A stretch of 64,000 nt of DNA from Alphaproteobacteria bacterium (GTDB lineage: Bacteria > Pseudomonadota > Alphaproteobacteria > JANQMY01), in NCBI GenBank assembly GCA_028289425.1, contig JANQPL010000017.1, positions 186,001 to 250,000 of the forward strand, written 5' to 3'. Below the pieces are notes generated by a model. It made no database searches and was not told the origin of the DNA. It worked only from the letters and a program-made list of their open reading frames with translations. The translations under genes were made by a program, and so were the position numbers. Shown here in pieces: positions 37,965 through 46,197 of the stretch (the first letter of the stretch is position 1; each line of letters starts with the position of its first letter).

Positions 37965-38888
37965 ATGTTAGGTTGCCAGGTACTGCAAATGTCGCAAGGA
38001 AATCCCAAGGTTTTGCCGCCAATGCCCGCTTTAAAGGCCTTTGAAGCGGCAGCCCGTCACATGAATTTTAAGCATGCGGCCACGGAGCTGGGCCTGTCCG
38101 CCTCGGCGGTGAGCCATCAAGTGCGCAAGCTCGAAGACTATTTGCAAGTACCCCTTTTCAAGCGCGGCTACCGTAAGGTGGAACTAACGGCGGACGGCGC
38201 GGCCTATGCGGCCGATCTCATCCGGGGCTTTCACGAAATTCGGTCGGGGACGGAACGTTTACTGAATGCGCGGCGGCGCGAACCGTTCCGTGTCAGCACC
38301 ATGCCGGTCTTCGCCGCGCGCTACCTCACCGAAACCATCGGCGATTTTGAACGGCAGAATCCCGAACTCGATGTGCGCTGGGAGATCAGCCACACCTGGC
38401 GCGATTTCGACAAAGATGATTTGGATGTGGCGATCCGCTACGGTACCGGCGCGTGGCCGGGTCTGCATGCGGAGCGTCTGTTCAACATTCGCGGGCGTCT
38501 TGCCTGCGCGCCGTCCATGCTCGACGGCGAAACGCCGCTCCAAAAACTTGAAGATCTTAGACACCACGTGTGGATCGGCGTTCAGCAGGCCCCAAATTCT
38601 TGGGCGGAATGGACCGAAGCCGCCGGCATGCCGGATCTTCAACCGGCGCGCATTCTTTGGTACGACACGCTGGTGGGCGCACTGCAAGCCGCCCAAACCG
38701 GGCTTGGGTTTGTTCTGGGGCCGGACGTTTTGTTCGACCGCCACATTGCGTCAGGTCAATTGGTCTATCCGTTCGATGTGGTGTCCAATTCCGCCGAAAG
38801 TTATTTTTTCGTATGCCGGCCTCAAATGCGTGACGACCCCAAAGTCAAGCGCTTCCGGTCCTGGCTCAAGAAGCAGATGGACGCCTAA
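37965..38888 (+). CDS. LysR family transcriptional regulator (GcvA-like)
   Basis: PPMPALKAFEAAARHMNFKHAATELGLSASAVSHQVRKLEDYLQVPLFKRGYRKVELTADGAAYA. Confidence 0.93.
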   Translation: MLGCQVLQMSQGNPKVLPPMPALKAFEAAARHMNFKHAATELGLSASAVSHQVRKLEDYLQVPLFKRGYRKVELTADGAAYAADLIRGFHEIRSGTERLLNARRREPFRVSTMPVFAARYLTETIGDFERQNPELDVRWEISHTWRDFDKDDLDVAIRYGTGAWPGLHAERLFNIRGRLACAPSMLDGETPLQKLEDLRHHVWIGVQQAPNSWAEWTEAAGMPDLQPARILWYDTLVGALQAAQTGLGFVLGPDVLFDRHIASGQLVYPFDVVSNSAESYFFVCRPQMRDDPKVKRFRSWLKKQMDA

Positions 38889-39303
38889 GGCCGCCCGCTT
38901 GCACCAGCCGCGTGATGGACATGCCAACCAGCATGGCCACCACAAAGGCGATGGATTGTTCCGGCGCCGCGCCCAACGACGCGATCGCCGGGCCTGGGCA
39001 GAAACCCACCAATCCCCAGCCAATACCGAAAAGCGTGGCGCCACCGACCAATGGCAGATCGATGTCGTTCCGTGTGGGAAGTGCAAAATTGCCGGCAAAT
39101 AGGGGGTGGGGGCGCCGTGTCGCCAGCCGATGGCCCATGAAATTCACGGCAACCGCGCCCGCCATCACAAAAGCAAGGCTCGCATCCCAGGCGCCGAGGA
39201 TATCCAGAAAGCCCAGCACCTTGGCCGGATTGATCATGCCGGAAATTACCAGTCCCAAGCTAAACAACAGGCCGATCAGAAAGGCGGAAACGTGTTTCAT
39301 CAT
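38866..39303 (-). CDS. YeeE/YedE (DUF6691) membrane protein
   Basis: VSGMINPAKVLGFLDILGAWDASLAFVMAGAVAVNFMGHRLATRRPHPLFAGNF...GIGWGLVGFCPGPAIASLG. Confidence 0.87.
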   Translation of the reverse strand: MMKHVSAFLIGLLFSLGLVISGMINPAKVLGFLDILGAWDASLAFVMAGAVAVNFMGHRLATRRPHPLFAGNFALPTRNDIDLPLVGGATLFGIGWGLVGFCPGPAIASLGAAPEQSIAFVVAMLVGMSITRLVQAGGLRRPSAS

Positions 39304-39306
39304 GTC

Positions 39307-39726
39307 TTAGCCTCCTAACCCGTGCCGCACGACGAAAACCGTCACCATGGCAACGCCCATGAATATGGCAGTCGCCACAAACGACCGCGGTGAGAGGCGG
39401 GGCAAACCGCACACACCATGGCCGGACGTGCAGCCGCTGCCGATGACGGTACCGGCGCCGACGATCAATCCGGCGGCGATCAGCAACGGCATATTGTTGG
39501 TGACGGTGAAGGGGATCGATGATTGGGTTGCGGCTGTAAAGGCCACCGGGGCTGCGACCACGCCCAGCACAAAGGACAAGCGCCACCCCCATTCGCTTTC
39601 AATGGGCGGTGTCAAACGGCTGACAATGCCGCTTACCCCCATGACTTTGCCGTGGGCCGCCATGAGCAGTGTGGCGGCAAGCCCGATAAGCGCGCCGCCG
39701 ATCGTTGCAAGAACGAAATCGTGCAT
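39307..39726 (-). CDS. YeeE/YedE family membrane protein
   Basis: LIGLAATLLMAAHGKVMGVSGIVSRL...IVGAGTVIGSGCTSGHGVCGLPRLSPRSFVATAIFMGVAM; conserved GSGCTSGHGVCGL motif. Confidence 0.9.
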   Translation of the reverse strand: MHDFVLATIGGALIGLAATLLMAAHGKVMGVSGIVSRLTPPIESEWGWRLSFVLGVVAAPVAFTAATQSSIPFTVTNNMPLLIAAGLIVGAGTVIGSGCTSGHGVCGLPRLSPRSFVATAIFMGVAMVTVFVVRHGLGG

Positions 39727-40052
39727 TAGGACCTCCTGTTTTGATTGTTTTTTGGGGCACAAAACGTGTCGTACAGAAACATCATGATTTTCATGATGTT
39801 CGGATCGGCGATGGCGTAGAAGATGGATTGTCCATCGCGCCGTGTACGAACAATCCCTTCCCGCCGCAAAATGGCGAGTTGTTGTGACATGGCGGGCGGC
39901 TTCATGCCGACGGCGGCGCACAGCTCGCCGGACGACATCTCTCCCTCCACCAGCTGGCACAACACCATCAACCGGCCGGGTGCCGACAGCAGCTTCATAT
40001 AGCTACTCACCTCGTCGGCGGTTTCTTCCATCTGCGCGATGTCTAATTTCAT
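39726..40052 (-). CDS. ArsR family regulator, BigR/SqrR-like (persulfide-sensor type)
   Basis: LLSAPGRLMVLCQLVEGEMSSGELCAAVGMKPPAMSQQLAILRREGIVRTRRDGQSIFYAIADPNIMKIMMFLYDTFCAP, with Cys in GELCAAV and TFCAP; adjacent to YeeE/YedE genes. Confidence 0.85.
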   Translation of the reverse strand: MKLDIAQMEETADEVSSYMKLLSAPGRLMVLCQLVEGEMSSGELCAAVGMKPPAMSQQLAILRREGIVRTRRDGQSIFYAIADPNIMKIMMFLYDTFCAPKNNQNRRS

Positions 40053-40424: not shown

Positions 40425-41804
40425 TTATCGCTTCCCAAACACCACGGGAAGGTGCCAGCACGTGTGCATGTCGCCCACGCGCAAGGACTGAAGGGCCGGG
40501 GCAGCGCCGTCTGCCGGCTTGAGATCTTGCAGTTCCTCAAGCAGAACGCGTGAGGCGGTGACGGCCGTATCGCGTGTCAGGGCGTAGAGAGAACGCGGCC
40601 TTTCTTCGGGCAGCGCCGGGAATTTGCTCGGTGGGCCCAGCCCAAAGGCGATGCCGGAGGCGAGCCCGTCGGCGCGGTATTGGCCGCGGGGTTCGCGCTG
40701 GCACACATCCTTGCGGTCAATGCGGAAGGCATCCGGATCTTCAAAGATGCCCGGGTCGCGATTGGCGGCGGCCGCCGAACAAATCAACAGAGCGCCTTCC
40801 GGCAGCAGTTGTCCGAACCGTTCCACTTCGTGCCTTGCGAACCGCTTGGCCGACAGAATCGGCGGCGAATGGCGCAAGGTTTCGTAATAGGCGTATTTCA
40901 AAAGCCGCGTTTCGTCCGCCACCCGGGCAAGCTGATCCGGATGGGTCAGCAACAGAAACCACATATTGGCGAGGGCGCCGTGCAAGGTTTCGTGATCCGC
41001 CTCGAGCACCGTGGTGGCCACATCTTCCGCCGTCGCCGGCCCGCCTTCCAGGTCAAGGGTTGCGATGGCGGAGATAACATCTTCCCCCGGATCCGAACGC
41101 CGCGCCTCAAGCAGAGGCCGGACAAGATCTGCAAGCGCTTGAACCGCTTGCTTGCCGTCCGCTTGAGCCTTTGGCTCCCAGGTGGCACCGCGCTGGGCGC
41201 GCCAATAAAGATTTGCAAAAGCGCCTAGATCATCCGCAGGCAGATTAAGCTGGTGCCCCAGAAGTTCGATGGCGAAACGCGCCGCAACGTCCAGCGCGAG
41301 ATCGGCTGTTCCGCTCGATGCCACGTCCGAAACGATGCGGCGGGCGATGGCTTCTGCGCCCGCATCCATCCGTTGTGCCTGAGCGGCCAAGACGGGAAGC
41401 TCGAAGCGGAGGTCACGGCCAAATCCCAAAAGGCCATAGGTCCACAGTTTCGAGCGGGTTTCAAAATTGGCGTCATCGGTGAAAATGGACGTCACATCGT
41501 CATAGCGCGTGACCCAATAGGCGTTGCCCAGCCAATCCCGGTAACACGGATAGTTCTCGCGCAGGGTGGCCAAGATGGGATAGGGATCGCTGCGATACTC
41601 ATCGGAAATCAAATCGCTCGGCTTTAGTTTCTCCGTCGACTGACGGACCCGCTGACGCTGATAGATTTCGTATGAGCGGTAGCCTTCCGCATTCTTGACG
41701 TGCCGTGGTGCTGCGGCCACGCCGTTATTGCCGACAGTCAAACGCCCTTGCCAGAAGCTCTGATCTGGGGGCGCGGCGGATTGTTTTTCTTTGTCCAGTG
41801 ACAT
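40425..41804 (-). CDS. Cytochrome P450-family protein lacking the heme-ligating cysteine
   Basis: P450 fold signals: NYPCYRDWLGNAYWVTRYDDVTSIF, ExxR in AYYETLRHSPPI, and ICSAAAANRDPGIFEDPDAFRIDR. Where FGxGxHxCxG is expected the sequence is FGLGPPSKFPALPEERPRS. Start chosen at internal MSLDKEK. Confidence 0.87.
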   Translation of the reverse strand: MSLDKEKQSAAPPDQSFWQGRLTVGNNGVAAAPRHVKNAEGYRSYEIYQRQRVRQSTEKLKPSDLISDEYRSDPYPILATLRENYPCYRDWLGNAYWVTRYDDVTSIFTDDANFETRSKLWTYGLLGFGRDLRFELPVLAAQAQRMDAGAEAIARRIVSDVASSGTADLALDVAARFAIELLGHQLNLPADDLGAFANLYWRAQRGATWEPKAQADGKQAVQALADLVRPLLEARRSDPGEDVISAIATLDLEGGPATAEDVATTVLEADHETLHGALANMWFLLLTHPDQLARVADETRLLKYAYYETLRHSPPILSAKRFARHEVERFGQLLPEGALLICSAAAANRDPGIFEDPDAFRIDRKDVCQREPRGQYRADGLASGIAFGLGPPSKFPALPEERPRSLYALTRDTAVTASRVLLEELQDLKPADGAAPALQSLRVGDMHTCWHLPVVFGKR

Positions 41805-41809
41805 GCGCT

Positions 41810-43258
41810 TCACACAACTTCGAAATCGATCCACAGATCGCGCACGGAAATGAGCCCGATGGGCACCAAGCTCTTACCATCAATGTCTTTCTTCATGCGT
41901 TCCACATTGATGCGCGGATTCTTGAAATGCTTGGCCAACACCATGGAGCCCAGCACCGCTTCCTGGTGCGAGATCCATGCGCCCGGACACAGATGCGGCC
42001 CCACGCCAAAGGCCATGTGGCTGCAGCGGCCCTCTTTCCTGAAACCGCTGCGCAAAATCTTGCCGCTGTAGAGGTCGGCCCGGTGGATATCGAAATCTTC
42101 CGGGTTCTCGAAGATGCGGTCGTCGTGGTTGGCCGAAAAATCGACCATCTGAACCAGAGATCCCGCCGGGATGGTCACCCCGTGCAGTTCCACGTCATAG
42201 GTATTGTGACGCGGTTGTCCGCCGATGGGTGTGGAATGACGCAGGGTTTCGTGAAACGCGTTGTCCCACAGCGCCTCGTCCGCCATCACTTGCGCAAATT
42301 GCTCTGGATGCTGCAACAGAAGGTACCACATATTCATAATGGCGCCGCGGGTTGTCTCGCCGCCACCGCCGACGATCAGCGCCACATTGGAGGTGATTTC
42401 TTCCGTCGACAGATAATCGCCGTCGATCTTCTCTTCGCAGAGTTTAGAAATGATGTCCTTGCCGATGGACTTGCCGTCATCGCCATAGAGGAAGGTGGGC
42501 TGCTTGCGCCGCTCGCGTACGATGGGCTCCAGATAGTCTTCCAGATCCTGCCGCGCTTCGAGCCCTTGCCGGTGGGTGTCGGACCCGCCCAGCCCCGACA
42601 TCATCGAATTGTACCAATAATAGAACTGCCCCCGCGCTTCTTGAGGAAAGCCCAGCACTTCACACACCACGCGGATGGGGAATTCGTTGGCAAAGGCCTT
42701 GCCCAATTCTACCGTGCGCGTGCCGTCTTCGTTTTTCACATACCAGTCTTCGTCGGCGGCTTCCCACGCGTCGATCATTTCGCGCGCCAGCCGCTCGATG
42801 GACGGCAGGCGGTTCTTCAGCGCCTGTCCCACGAGATGTTGGCCATAGAGATTACGCCGGCGTTTGTGCTCGATACCGCTCAGCTCAAGCTGGGTGTTGC
42901 CCAGCACCCCGCTCGACGAGCCTTTGGGAATGGTGTTGAAGCCCTCATCGTCGAAATAACAGGTGGTGATGTCGTCATAGCGTGTCACCCAATAACAATT
43001 GTGCAGCGTGTCGTGATAGACCGGGTAGTGGTCGCGCAAGATCTTGTAATAGGGGTAGGGGTTGCGCGCGAATTCGTAGCTGTCGAAGACGCGCGGGTCG
43101 AAGAGCGGCGTGCCGTCGGGGCTACGTCCCATATCAGCCGCTTCGCCGATGGGCATGAGGGGAATTGCGGATGACGAACTTTTTTCAACGTCGCGCCCGT
43201 TCGTGTCTAATTCCAATACATTGGCGATGGCGGCGGTGATGGCGTTCCCCGATGACAT
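41810..43258 (-). CDS. Cytochrome P450 (canonical Cys loop)
   Basis: I-helix GGGGETTRGAI, ExxR in HETLRHSTP, heme loop FGVGPHLCPGAWISHQEA. Confidence 0.95.
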   Translation of the reverse strand: MSSGNAITAAIANVLELDTNGRDVEKSSSSAIPLMPIGEAADMGRSPDGTPLFDPRVFDSYEFARNPYPYYKILRDHYPVYHDTLHNCYWVTRYDDITTCYFDDEGFNTIPKGSSSGVLGNTQLELSGIEHKRRRNLYGQHLVGQALKNRLPSIERLAREMIDAWEAADEDWYVKNEDGTRTVELGKAFANEFPIRVVCEVLGFPQEARGQFYYWYNSMMSGLGGSDTHRQGLEARQDLEDYLEPIVRERRKQPTFLYGDDGKSIGKDIISKLCEEKIDGDYLSTEEITSNVALIVGGGGETTRGAIMNMWYLLLQHPEQFAQVMADEALWDNAFHETLRHSTPIGGQPRHNTYDVELHGVTIPAGSLVQMVDFSANHDDRIFENPEDFDIHRADLYSGKILRSGFRKEGRCSHMAFGVGPHLCPGAWISHQEAVLGSMVLAKHFKNPRINVERMKKDIDGKSLVPIGLISVRDLWIDFEVV

Positions 43259-43340: not shown

Positions 43341-43631
43341 ATGACCTATGTGATTACAGATGCTTGTATCGACGTGAAAGACGAGTCCTGCGTGGCGGTC
43401 TGCCCGGTCGATTGTATCTATGCGGATGAAGATGACCGCATGCGCTACATCCACCCCACTGAGTGCATCGATTGCGCGGTATGTGTGGAGGCCTGCCCCG
43501 TGGCGGCGATCTATGCGGAAGCCGACCTGCCGGCAGACGCCCAACCGTTCCTCGACATCAACGATCTGTGGTTCAAGGACAAGCAAGCTGCCCGCGCTCA
43601 GGTGGAAACCCAAAAACCGGCGGATCATTAG
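43341..43631 (+). CDS. Ferredoxin with two Fe-S motifs (FdxA-like, 3Fe-4S/4Fe-4S)
   Basis: [60 protein letters not shown]. Confidence 0.93.
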
Positions 43632-43821: not shown

Positions 43822-44586
43822 TTAACCCGTAATCCTTTTGTACGCCGGCTGGCGGGGCGGCAGGGTGACGGGTTCGCCCGCCCAGGCGCCGATGTTCTCA
43901 CCGGTGCGGCCGTCTTCGATGATGTCGAGGGCCAATTGGGCGATCTGTTCTGACTTCATCACCGTTGCTGCAAATTCCGGCGGCAGCTCGCCATTGGGGA
44001 ACGCACCGCGCAGCATGGGTGTATCGGTGGCTCCCATGCAAATGGCGTTGACCGTCACACCATGCTCGGCCAATTGATTGGCCCAGGCATCGGTAAAGCC
44101 GTTCAACGCCCATTTGGACGCATTGTAGAGATCGGTCATCGGCGAATTGGTGCCCGGAGATTTTGCGGGCAACACGTAATAGGCGCTCATATTGATGATG
44201 TTGCCGCCGCCTTGCTTCAGATGCGGCACGCAGGCGCGGGATAACATCAACACGCCCTTGAGATTGGTGTCCATGATGTAGTCCCAATCTTCAAGCGCCT
44301 GCTCCCAAGAGGACGTGACCGGTGTCTGCCGCCAATGGGCCGCGTTGTTCACCAGAATATCGATGGCGCCGAACCGCTCGACCGTGGTGGCCACGACCTG
44401 CTCCACCTCAGCGCGTTGGGACACATCGGCACGTAACCCCACGACACCGCTCGCCTCCGAAATGGCTGGGTTTTCATCGACGGCCACAACGTTCGCGCCT
44501 TTGTCCGCGAAGAGCTTGGCGACGGCCTGGCCAATGCCTTGGGCGGCGCCGGTGACGATCGCTGTCTTGTTCTCAAGCATCGCCAT
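43822..44586 (-). CDS. SDR family oxidoreductase
   Basis: KTAIVTGAAQGIGQAVAKLFADKGANVVAVD...ILVNNAAHWR...DLYNASKWALNGFTDAWANQL (YxxxK). Confidence 0.94.
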   Translation of the reverse strand: MAMLENKTAIVTGAAQGIGQAVAKLFADKGANVVAVDENPAISEASGVVGLRADVSQRAEVEQVVATTVERFGAIDILVNNAAHWRQTPVTSSWEQALEDWDYIMDTNLKGVLMLSRACVPHLKQGGGNIINMSAYYVLPAKSPGTNSPMTDLYNASKWALNGFTDAWANQLAEHGVTVNAICMGATDTPMLRGAFPNGELPPEFAATVMKSEQIAQLALDIIEDGRTGENIGAWAGEPVTLPPRQPAYKRITG

Positions 44587-45472
44587 GGAGCGCCTCCTCT
44601 TGGATGTAGAGAAGCGGCAGAGCCGGCTCCAGCTTCGGCGGGCGGCCGACACACAAATTGATGTTGTTGGCGTTACGCCCCCCTGGCCCTTCTTTCAACA
44701 GGTCGATCACTACTTGGGCCACATCTTCCTTGGCCATCCAGGTGGCGATTTCCTTTTGCTGCTCTTCGGTTTCCTCGCTCGGCGTTTGAGGAAACCTGAA
44801 AAAGTCGCGGATCATCCAGGAATCGGTGGCCCCCATGCACATGGCATTCACCCGAATGCCATGGGGTTTGAGCGCCTGTGCCCACGCAAACATCAGCCCG
44901 TTGAGCCCCCATTTCGAGGCATCGTAAATGTCCATCATGTGGCCGCCGCTGGTGGGACGCCGTGCGTCCGCCCACGGACAATTTGGGTTCTTCGGACATT
45001 GATCGTGCGGCGCGCCGCAGGTGAACATGTGGTCGGTGGCGATGTTGACAATCTCGCCGCCGCGGCCTTGCTCAAGCATCTGCGCAATCACCGCGCGGCC
45101 GATCAGGAACTCGCCCTTTAGGTTGGTGCCGACCATTTCCTCGTAATCATCGAGGGTTTTGTCGAGGGCGTCATCCGCCATACTCACTTTGCATTTGCCC
45201 GCATTGTTGATGAGGATGTCGATGCCACCTAACGCGCTGATGGTTTCGTCCACAAAGCGCCGTACATCATCAGGCTTCGACACATCTGCGATCATACCGA
45301 AGGCCCGCACGCCCTTCGCTTCAAGCTGAGCTGGCAGCTCCATGATCTCCGGTCTTATGTCGCAGACGGCAACGTCGACGCCTTCCGCAGCGAGAGCATG
45401 TGCATAGGCCGGGCCGATGCCTACGGCCGCGCCGGTGACGATTGCGGTCTTGCCGTTCAGGGAAACAGTCAT
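44573..45472 (-). CDS. SDR family oxidoreductase (paralog, with Cys-rich insertion)
   Basis: KTAIVTGAAVGIGPAYAHALAAEGVDVAVCD...ILINNAGKCK...DHMFTCGAPHDQCPKNPNCPWADARRPTSGGHMMDIYDASKWGLNGL. Confidence 0.94.
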   Translation of the reverse strand: MTVSLNGKTAIVTGAAVGIGPAYAHALAAEGVDVAVCDIRPEIMELPAQLEAKGVRAFGMIADVSKPDDVRRFVDETISALGGIDILINNAGKCKVSMADDALDKTLDDYEEMVGTNLKGEFLIGRAVIAQMLEQGRGGEIVNIATDHMFTCGAPHDQCPKNPNCPWADARRPTSGGHMMDIYDASKWGLNGLMFAWAQALKPHGIRVNAMCMGATDSWMIRDFFRFPQTPSEETEEQQKEIATWMAKEDVAQVVIDLLKEGPGGRNANNINLCVGRPPKLEPALPLLYIQEEALHGDA

Positions 45473-45606
45473 GGACAAGCTCTCCCAACAAGTTTGTTTT
45501 AGGGTAGTATACAGAGAATTCGAATGGTCAGAATAAACGACTGTGTTTTCGTTACGAGGCCCGCCCTCGTGCAGAAAAAACACAAACGCAGGGAGGCGTG
45601 CAAAGA

Positions 45607-46197
45607 ATGGATCCATCAGCGGAAGAGTTGCGCGAACTTTTTCACAAACAAAAAATCACCGACGTCATCATGACCTATTGCCGGGCCATCGATCACATGG
45701 ACGAAGCCCTTCTGCGCACCGTGTTCCATCCGGATTCGCAACATGAACATGGGTTCAAAGGCCCCAGCAGCGATCCGACCGCGGAGTCCTCCCCTGGCAA
45801 ACCTGGGGACTTTGTGTCCTTCGCACTGGCCACCCTGTCAACCCACACCCACACCCACCACCAGCTTGGCAACATCTTTGTGGAAATCGAGAACGAAAAC
45901 CTGGCGTTCACAGAAGCCTATTTCACCGCCTTCCACCGCATGCGTTCCAAGAGCGATCCCAAATCGGGGCCCATGGCGTTCGATACGGAAATGGATTTCT
46001 GGGTCGGCGGCCGTTACATGGACCGGTTCGAACGGCGCCATGGCCGCTGGAAGATCGCCTGCCGGAAAGCGACCACGGATTGGCAGCGCATTGAATCGCC
46101 AAGCTCCATGGGCATGCCGGAGGTACCTGCCCATCTCAAAAGTCATCAGAGTAGGGATGATCTGGTCTATCAGCGGCGCGAACTCCTGGTACCGTAA
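45607..46197 (+). CDS. SnoaL-like/NTF2 family protein
   Basis: LRELFHKQKITDVIMTYCRAIDHMDEALLRTVFHPDSQHEHGF...GRYMDRFERRHGRWKIACRKATTDW. Confidence 0.9.
   Translation: MDPSAEELRELFHKQKITDVIMTYCRAIDHMDEALLRTVFHPDSQHEHGFKGPSSDPTAESSPGKPGDFVSFALATLSTHTHTHHQLGNIFVEIENENLAFTEAYFTAFHRMRSKSDPKSGPMAFDTEMDFWVGGRYMDRFERRHGRWKIACRKATTDWQRIESPSSMGMPEVPAHLKSHQSRDDLVYQRRELLVP

Follow-up and report, generated by a model that had tools for sequence, protein, structure and literature searches.

The locus considered here raises the question of what function is served by a P450-fold protein that has lost the heme-ligating cysteine and is encoded immediately downstream of a canonical cytochrome P450. The two genes lie side by side on the reverse strand of the window, i.e. 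the whole stretch of 64,000 nucleotides of alphaproteobacterial DNA that was analysed. The first-pass annotation had described an intact Cys-less ORF directly 3' of a P450 with the heme loop FGVGPHLCPG, and had compared its product with EryCII and DesVIII. The Cys-less P450 homologues already known to act as partners do so for glycosyltransferases of antibiotic pathways, and EryCII stabilises or allosterically activates the glycosyltransferase EryCIII.

A P450 fold without its heme-binding elements

The Cys-less gene (40425..41804, reverse strand) runs from an ATG at 41804 to a stop at 40425, with an alternative GTG start possible at 41834, and encodes an uninterrupted protein of 459 aa. Its ATG follows the stop of the canonical P450 gene after a gap of 5 nt, which confirms the arrangement first described. 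The two proteins of the window share 32% identity over 379 aligned positions. The Cys-less protein scores 32.4 bits against the Pfam p450 profile PF00067 (cut-off 22.8), and its AlphaFold2 monomer model, built with 73 sequences (pLDDT 86.9), shows the whole P450 fold between about residues 57 and 459, minus the C-helix segment. The top fold match of this model is CYP134A1 (Z 40.8 over 372 residues, 23% identity), so the assignment to the P450 fold is upheld by structure comparison. CYP134A1 (CypX) and its relatives (TIGR04538) provide the closest solved structures and the best PDB sequence match; CYP134A1, however, is a heme P450, whereas the Cys-less protein has no such Cys and reaches 124.8 bits against the cyclodipeptide-associated, CYP134-like TIGR04538, for which the cut-off is 500.

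The former heme loop FGLGPPSKFPA (40614..40646, reverse strand; FGLGPPSKFPAL, read from 40646) corresponds to FGVGPHLCPG of the canonical protein (42010-41981). It had been read as a replacement of the proximal Cys by Lys. The absence of the Cys stands, and Lys394 occupies its position if no gap is allowed, but the alignment of 73 pairs places Phe395 in this column. Across the 73 Cys-less proteins the column is always aromatic (His in 58, Tyr in 10, Phe in 3 and Trp in 2), and the axial Cys of the FxxGxxxCxG loop is found in none of these full-length homologues, whichever alignment is used. The ExxR motif (ETLR, 40872..40883, reverse strand) retains Glu and Arg in 73/73, as first proposed; the I-helix Glu-Thr, which was likewise said to be kept, is mostly so (Glu in 59/73, Thr in 70/73). 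This I-helix segment, EADHETLHG (40977..41003, reverse strand), bears Asp270 at the position of the O2-groove Gly, a conserved small I-helix residue, and the substitution is shared by all 73 proteins. A further loss, additional to those noted initially, concerns about 22 residues that are present in the partner. The resulting gap, located at residues 119/120 (41445..41450, reverse strand), removes part of the B-C region and the C helix, including the HxxxR heme-propionate motif. The gap is present in 73/73 Cys-less proteins, in each of which the column of the canonical His131 is empty.

These losses are accompanied by motifs proper to the family. Near the C terminus lies the signature MHTCW (40455..40469, reverse strand), with Cys449 and Trp450 invariant. 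The N-terminal arm, residues 41-60 (GYRSYEIYQRQRVRQSTEKL; 41625..41684, reverse strand), holds R43, E46, Q49, R50, R52 and T57, all invariant among the 73 proteins. In the monomer model this arm is poorly placed (conservation 0.87 and 0.79, pLDDT 43 and 58), as are residues 371-380 (conservation 0.95, pLDDT 59) and 391-400 (conservation 0.80, pLDDT 64). All three segments are nearly invariant yet unplaced in the monomer, and they are therefore candidate binding surfaces, the arm possibly for the partner. The low pLDDT of the former heme loop may reflect no more than loop flexibility; the model of the canonical P450 is likewise uncertain near its own heme loop.

Distribution and pairing with the canonical P450

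Genome contigs scanned with a profile of four sequences yielded 77 loci; the scan patterns demand the family motifs, such that more distant Cys-bearing relatives may escape. Together with the window and the whole-genome hits, 81 copies of the Cys-less gene were collected in 77 loci, 73 of them full-length. The carriers are labelled as Alphaproteobacteria (Caulobacterales, Sphingomonadales), Gammaproteobacteria (Pseudomonadales), Acidimicrobiia and a few others; since all record titles returned are those of metagenome-assembled genomes, individual labels (e.g. 'Kuenenia') are unreliable. A phylum-wide sample of 398 genomes yielded no additional carrier. Two weaker matches were set aside as ordinary P450s, namely one on a Rhodococcus plasmid (28%), which has the Cys loop, and L118 (26%). 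One further locus (L117:1300-1614) holds just a 3' piece of the Cys-less gene, with no canonical P450 alongside; the metagenome-assembled genome concerned has an intact pair elsewhere (L057).

In the tree, the Cys-less family arose once (SH-aLRT 100) and sits on a long stem, within a clade (SH-aLRT 99) that also takes in the canonical subfamily and a third group of P450s, the branching order being tentative in this quick tree. In the 40 closest comparisons listed, Nei-Gojobori dN/dS lies between 0.05 and 0.29 for the Cys-less gene, for which 39 values are defined, and between 0.02 and 0.24 for the canonical gene; between the window and its sister genome the values are 0.109 and 0.103, respectively. 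Judged by these ratios, both genes are under purifying selection, as had been anticipated for the Cys-less copy. A pseudogene or sequencing artefact, to which the loss of catalytic residues could point, is thus virtually discounted: the ORF is intact, and the family, with its single origin and 81 copies, combines low dN/dS with invariant new motifs. The first-pass view that this is not simple decay is accordingly sustained by the intact homologues.

The genetic pairing of the Cys-less gene with the canonical P450 is exclusive and ancient. Wherever upstream sequence is available, the preceding same-strand gene belongs to the canonical P450 subfamily (78/78, 63-88% identity), the remaining 3 of the 81 copies starting at a contig edge. 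In most pairs the two genes overlap or are no more than about 30 nt apart. Among 289 sampled alphaproteobacterial genomes, the Cys-less gene occurs in 6 and the canonical gene in the same 6. A set of 21 genomes from several groups, which was picked for holding the Cys-less gene and hence tests copy number and adjacency rather than presence, contains 23 copies of each of the two genes, every one of them in an adjacent pair. The linkage suggested by the window alone is thus conserved throughout. The pair also duplicates as a unit, one alphaproteobacterial family (f40) having mostly two pairs, often in tandem. The order P450, Cys-less, P450, Cys-less can be seen at L039:10078-15855, and also in L052, L053 and L056, all of one alphaproteobacterial family.

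Whole-genome counts of Cys-less and canonical genes are 1:1 except for three divergent canonical paralogues that have no partner (L155:7555-8997, L156:2075-3523 and L157:5979-7772). Within the G040 family, 15 canonical genes of ten genomes have a Cys-less neighbour and these 3 divergent paralogues do not. Because such paralogues, with about 64% identity, do without a Cys-less partner in three genomes, the catalytic fold is not always dependent on one. They are altered at 15 of 165 otherwise invariant positions, about six of which fall within residues 94-131 (B-C region); His131 of HxxxR is replaced by Asn, and Arg350 by Lys.

The distance matrices of the Cys-less and canonical proteins are correlated (r 0.77, 0/2000 permutations). 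At loci with a third P450, the correlation is 0.87 for the pair against 0.41 for the Cys-less protein and the third P450, and on the ferredoxin set it is 0.78 for the pair against 0.63. However, gene pairing and distance correlation would also be expected from two separate enzymes of one pathway.

Surrounding genes and related systems

The canonical P450 (41810..43258, reverse strand; 482 aa) carries an ordinary heme loop, and its Cys424 is present in 73/73 homologues. An FdxA-type ferredoxin gene is transcribed divergently (43341..43631, forward strand) and is the probable electron donor of this P450. Two short-chain dehydrogenases follow as conserved neighbours according to their annotation (43822..44652 and 44573..45616, both reverse strand). 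The annotated conserved neighbours of the pair comprise FdxA-type ferredoxin, SDRs, Rieske oxygenases, SnoaL-like, ThuA-like and glyoxalase-like proteins, an aldo-keto reductase, TetR and further P450s, with no glycosyltransferase among them; in related loci the genes near the pair include CoA transferases as well as Rieske oxygenases and additional P450s. This neighbourhood suggests that a hydrophobic substrate is catabolised or tailored. Two small ORFs of the window that lie downstream of the pair (38866-39960) resemble membrane transporter genes by eye. A third P450 with the loop FGIGQHFCMG (L055:11307-12587 and similar) follows the pair at a distance of at most two genes in 23/37 gammaproteobacterial cases; it was rejected as the true partner, being near the pair in 1/14 alphaproteobacterial and 0/16 acidimicrobial cases. 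P450s are numerous in these organisms: the 5.4-Mb alphaproteobacterial genome G000 has 37 P450 matches, and P450 candidates likewise number in the dozens in relatives that carry the pair.

The closest parallel in kind is the EryCII/DesVIII family (TIGR04515), which similarly combines a P450 fold with loss of the axial Cys and of the C-helix region, possesses an extra N-terminal segment ahead of the P450 core, and is encoded next to the putative partner. The partner in that family is a glycosyltransferase, whereas the putative partner here is a canonical P450, and the hosts differ, being Alpha- and Gammaproteobacteria and Acidimicrobiia in the present case. It could be argued from the shared changes, and from a weak TIGR04515 similarity in all 73 proteins, that the Cys-less protein is itself a glycosyltransferase activator of this family. 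We regard this as extremely unlikely, since the protein's 103.9 bits fall far short of the cut-off of 343, and six pair-bearing genomes contain no activator-dependent glycosyltransferase (TIGR04516) above cut-off. The likeness proposed initially thus holds for the kind of protein and fails for the partner, and the pair, on this evidence, stands outside the macrolide-glycosyltransferase setting, as had been suggested. EryCII is absent among the best 50 structural matches listed, which does not exclude a likeness to it. A second point of comparison is the split P450 EutEFG, encoded by three genes of the euthailol cluster, which was judged catalytically inactive and for which the authors proposed a structural role and suggested an evolutionary transition (PMC11574762). 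The likeness to the Cys-less protein lies in this judged inactivity and presumed structural part; EutEFG differs in belonging to a single cluster and in not forming a conserved pair. No earlier description of a conserved P450:Cys-less P450 pair was found in the open-access literature searched.

A proposed two-part P450

Taken together, these observations suggest that the pair constitutes a two-part P450, of which the heme-free half is a permanent partner and not a dead gene. We propose, with somewhat better than even confidence, that the Cys-less gene encodes a heme-free P450-fold subunit, dedicated to the adjacent upstream canonical P450 and probably its obligate partner. The main rival reading makes the protein an enzyme in its own right, working without heme in the same pathway; the P450 fold would then be reused, possibly with a metal, for a step before or after that of the canonical P450. 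Its pocket would be built from the invariant Asp270, from Glu268 (64/73), and from His271, Glu272 and His275 (the latter in 67/73) of the I-helix HExxH, and the strict co-inheritance of the two genes also suits two steps on one substrate. Nevertheless, HExxH (HETLH in the window) is found in 51/73 members and absent from 22/73, so such a metal site is not universal and an HExxH metalloenzyme is unsupported as a family trait; moreover, the Cys-less gene is strictly adjacent, at 1:1, to one P450 and its other neighbours vary, which fits a subunit better. We therefore consider a separate enzyme unlikely, though not negligible.

A role towards the redox chain or the substrate, in which the Cys-less protein would serve as a scaffold on which the ferredoxin docks, or as a carrier passing substrate to the canonical P450, is distinctly improbable. 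The kept P450 fold could hold a substrate, and the FdxA-type ferredoxin, whose cluster occurs in 41 loci, is a frequent neighbour of the pair, mainly in proteobacterial loci; in Acidimicrobiia, however, it is close to the pair in 1/15 cases, whereas the P450 is always there. It could also be supposed that the Cys-less protein still binds heme through a non-Cys axial ligand, as an unusual catalyst or a heme sensor. The prevalence of His and Tyr in the former Cys column is compatible with this idea, and the serine-ligated P450-G9 (PDB 9cjg) is among the structural matches of the model. We judge it very improbable, given that the column holds Phe or Trp in 5/73 proteins, that of the window included, and that the C-helix HxxxR and the O2-groove Gly are gone from every member.

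In the two-part P450 that we favour, the Cys-less chain would bind no heme and would form a heterodimer with the canonical chain, docking presumably via the N-terminal arm (41-60) and via the meander and former Cys loop (~366-405). By analogy with EryCII and EryCIII, the heme-free subunit may stabilise or allosterically activate the catalytic P450, which would carry out the oxidation with the adjacent FdxA-type ferredoxin as its probable electron donor. A more elaborate form of this hypothesis, in which the active P450 is an obligate heterodimer of a heme-bearing and a heme-free chain and the emptied pocket (Asp270, Glu268, His271/His275) has a function of its own, for a metal, a substrate or a passed intermediate, appears quite doubtful.

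P450-fold pseudoenzyme partners are known for glycosyltransferases, and the novelty here would be that the partner is a P450. If the proposal is correct, a pseudoenzyme subunit would serve a P450 itself in Alphaproteobacteria, Gammaproteobacteria and Acidimicrobiia, and such P450s are predicted to be unstable or inactive when expressed alone. The pair opens a direct test of whether a P450 requires a heme-free P450 chain, for which the natural partner-less paralogues offer a ready comparison.
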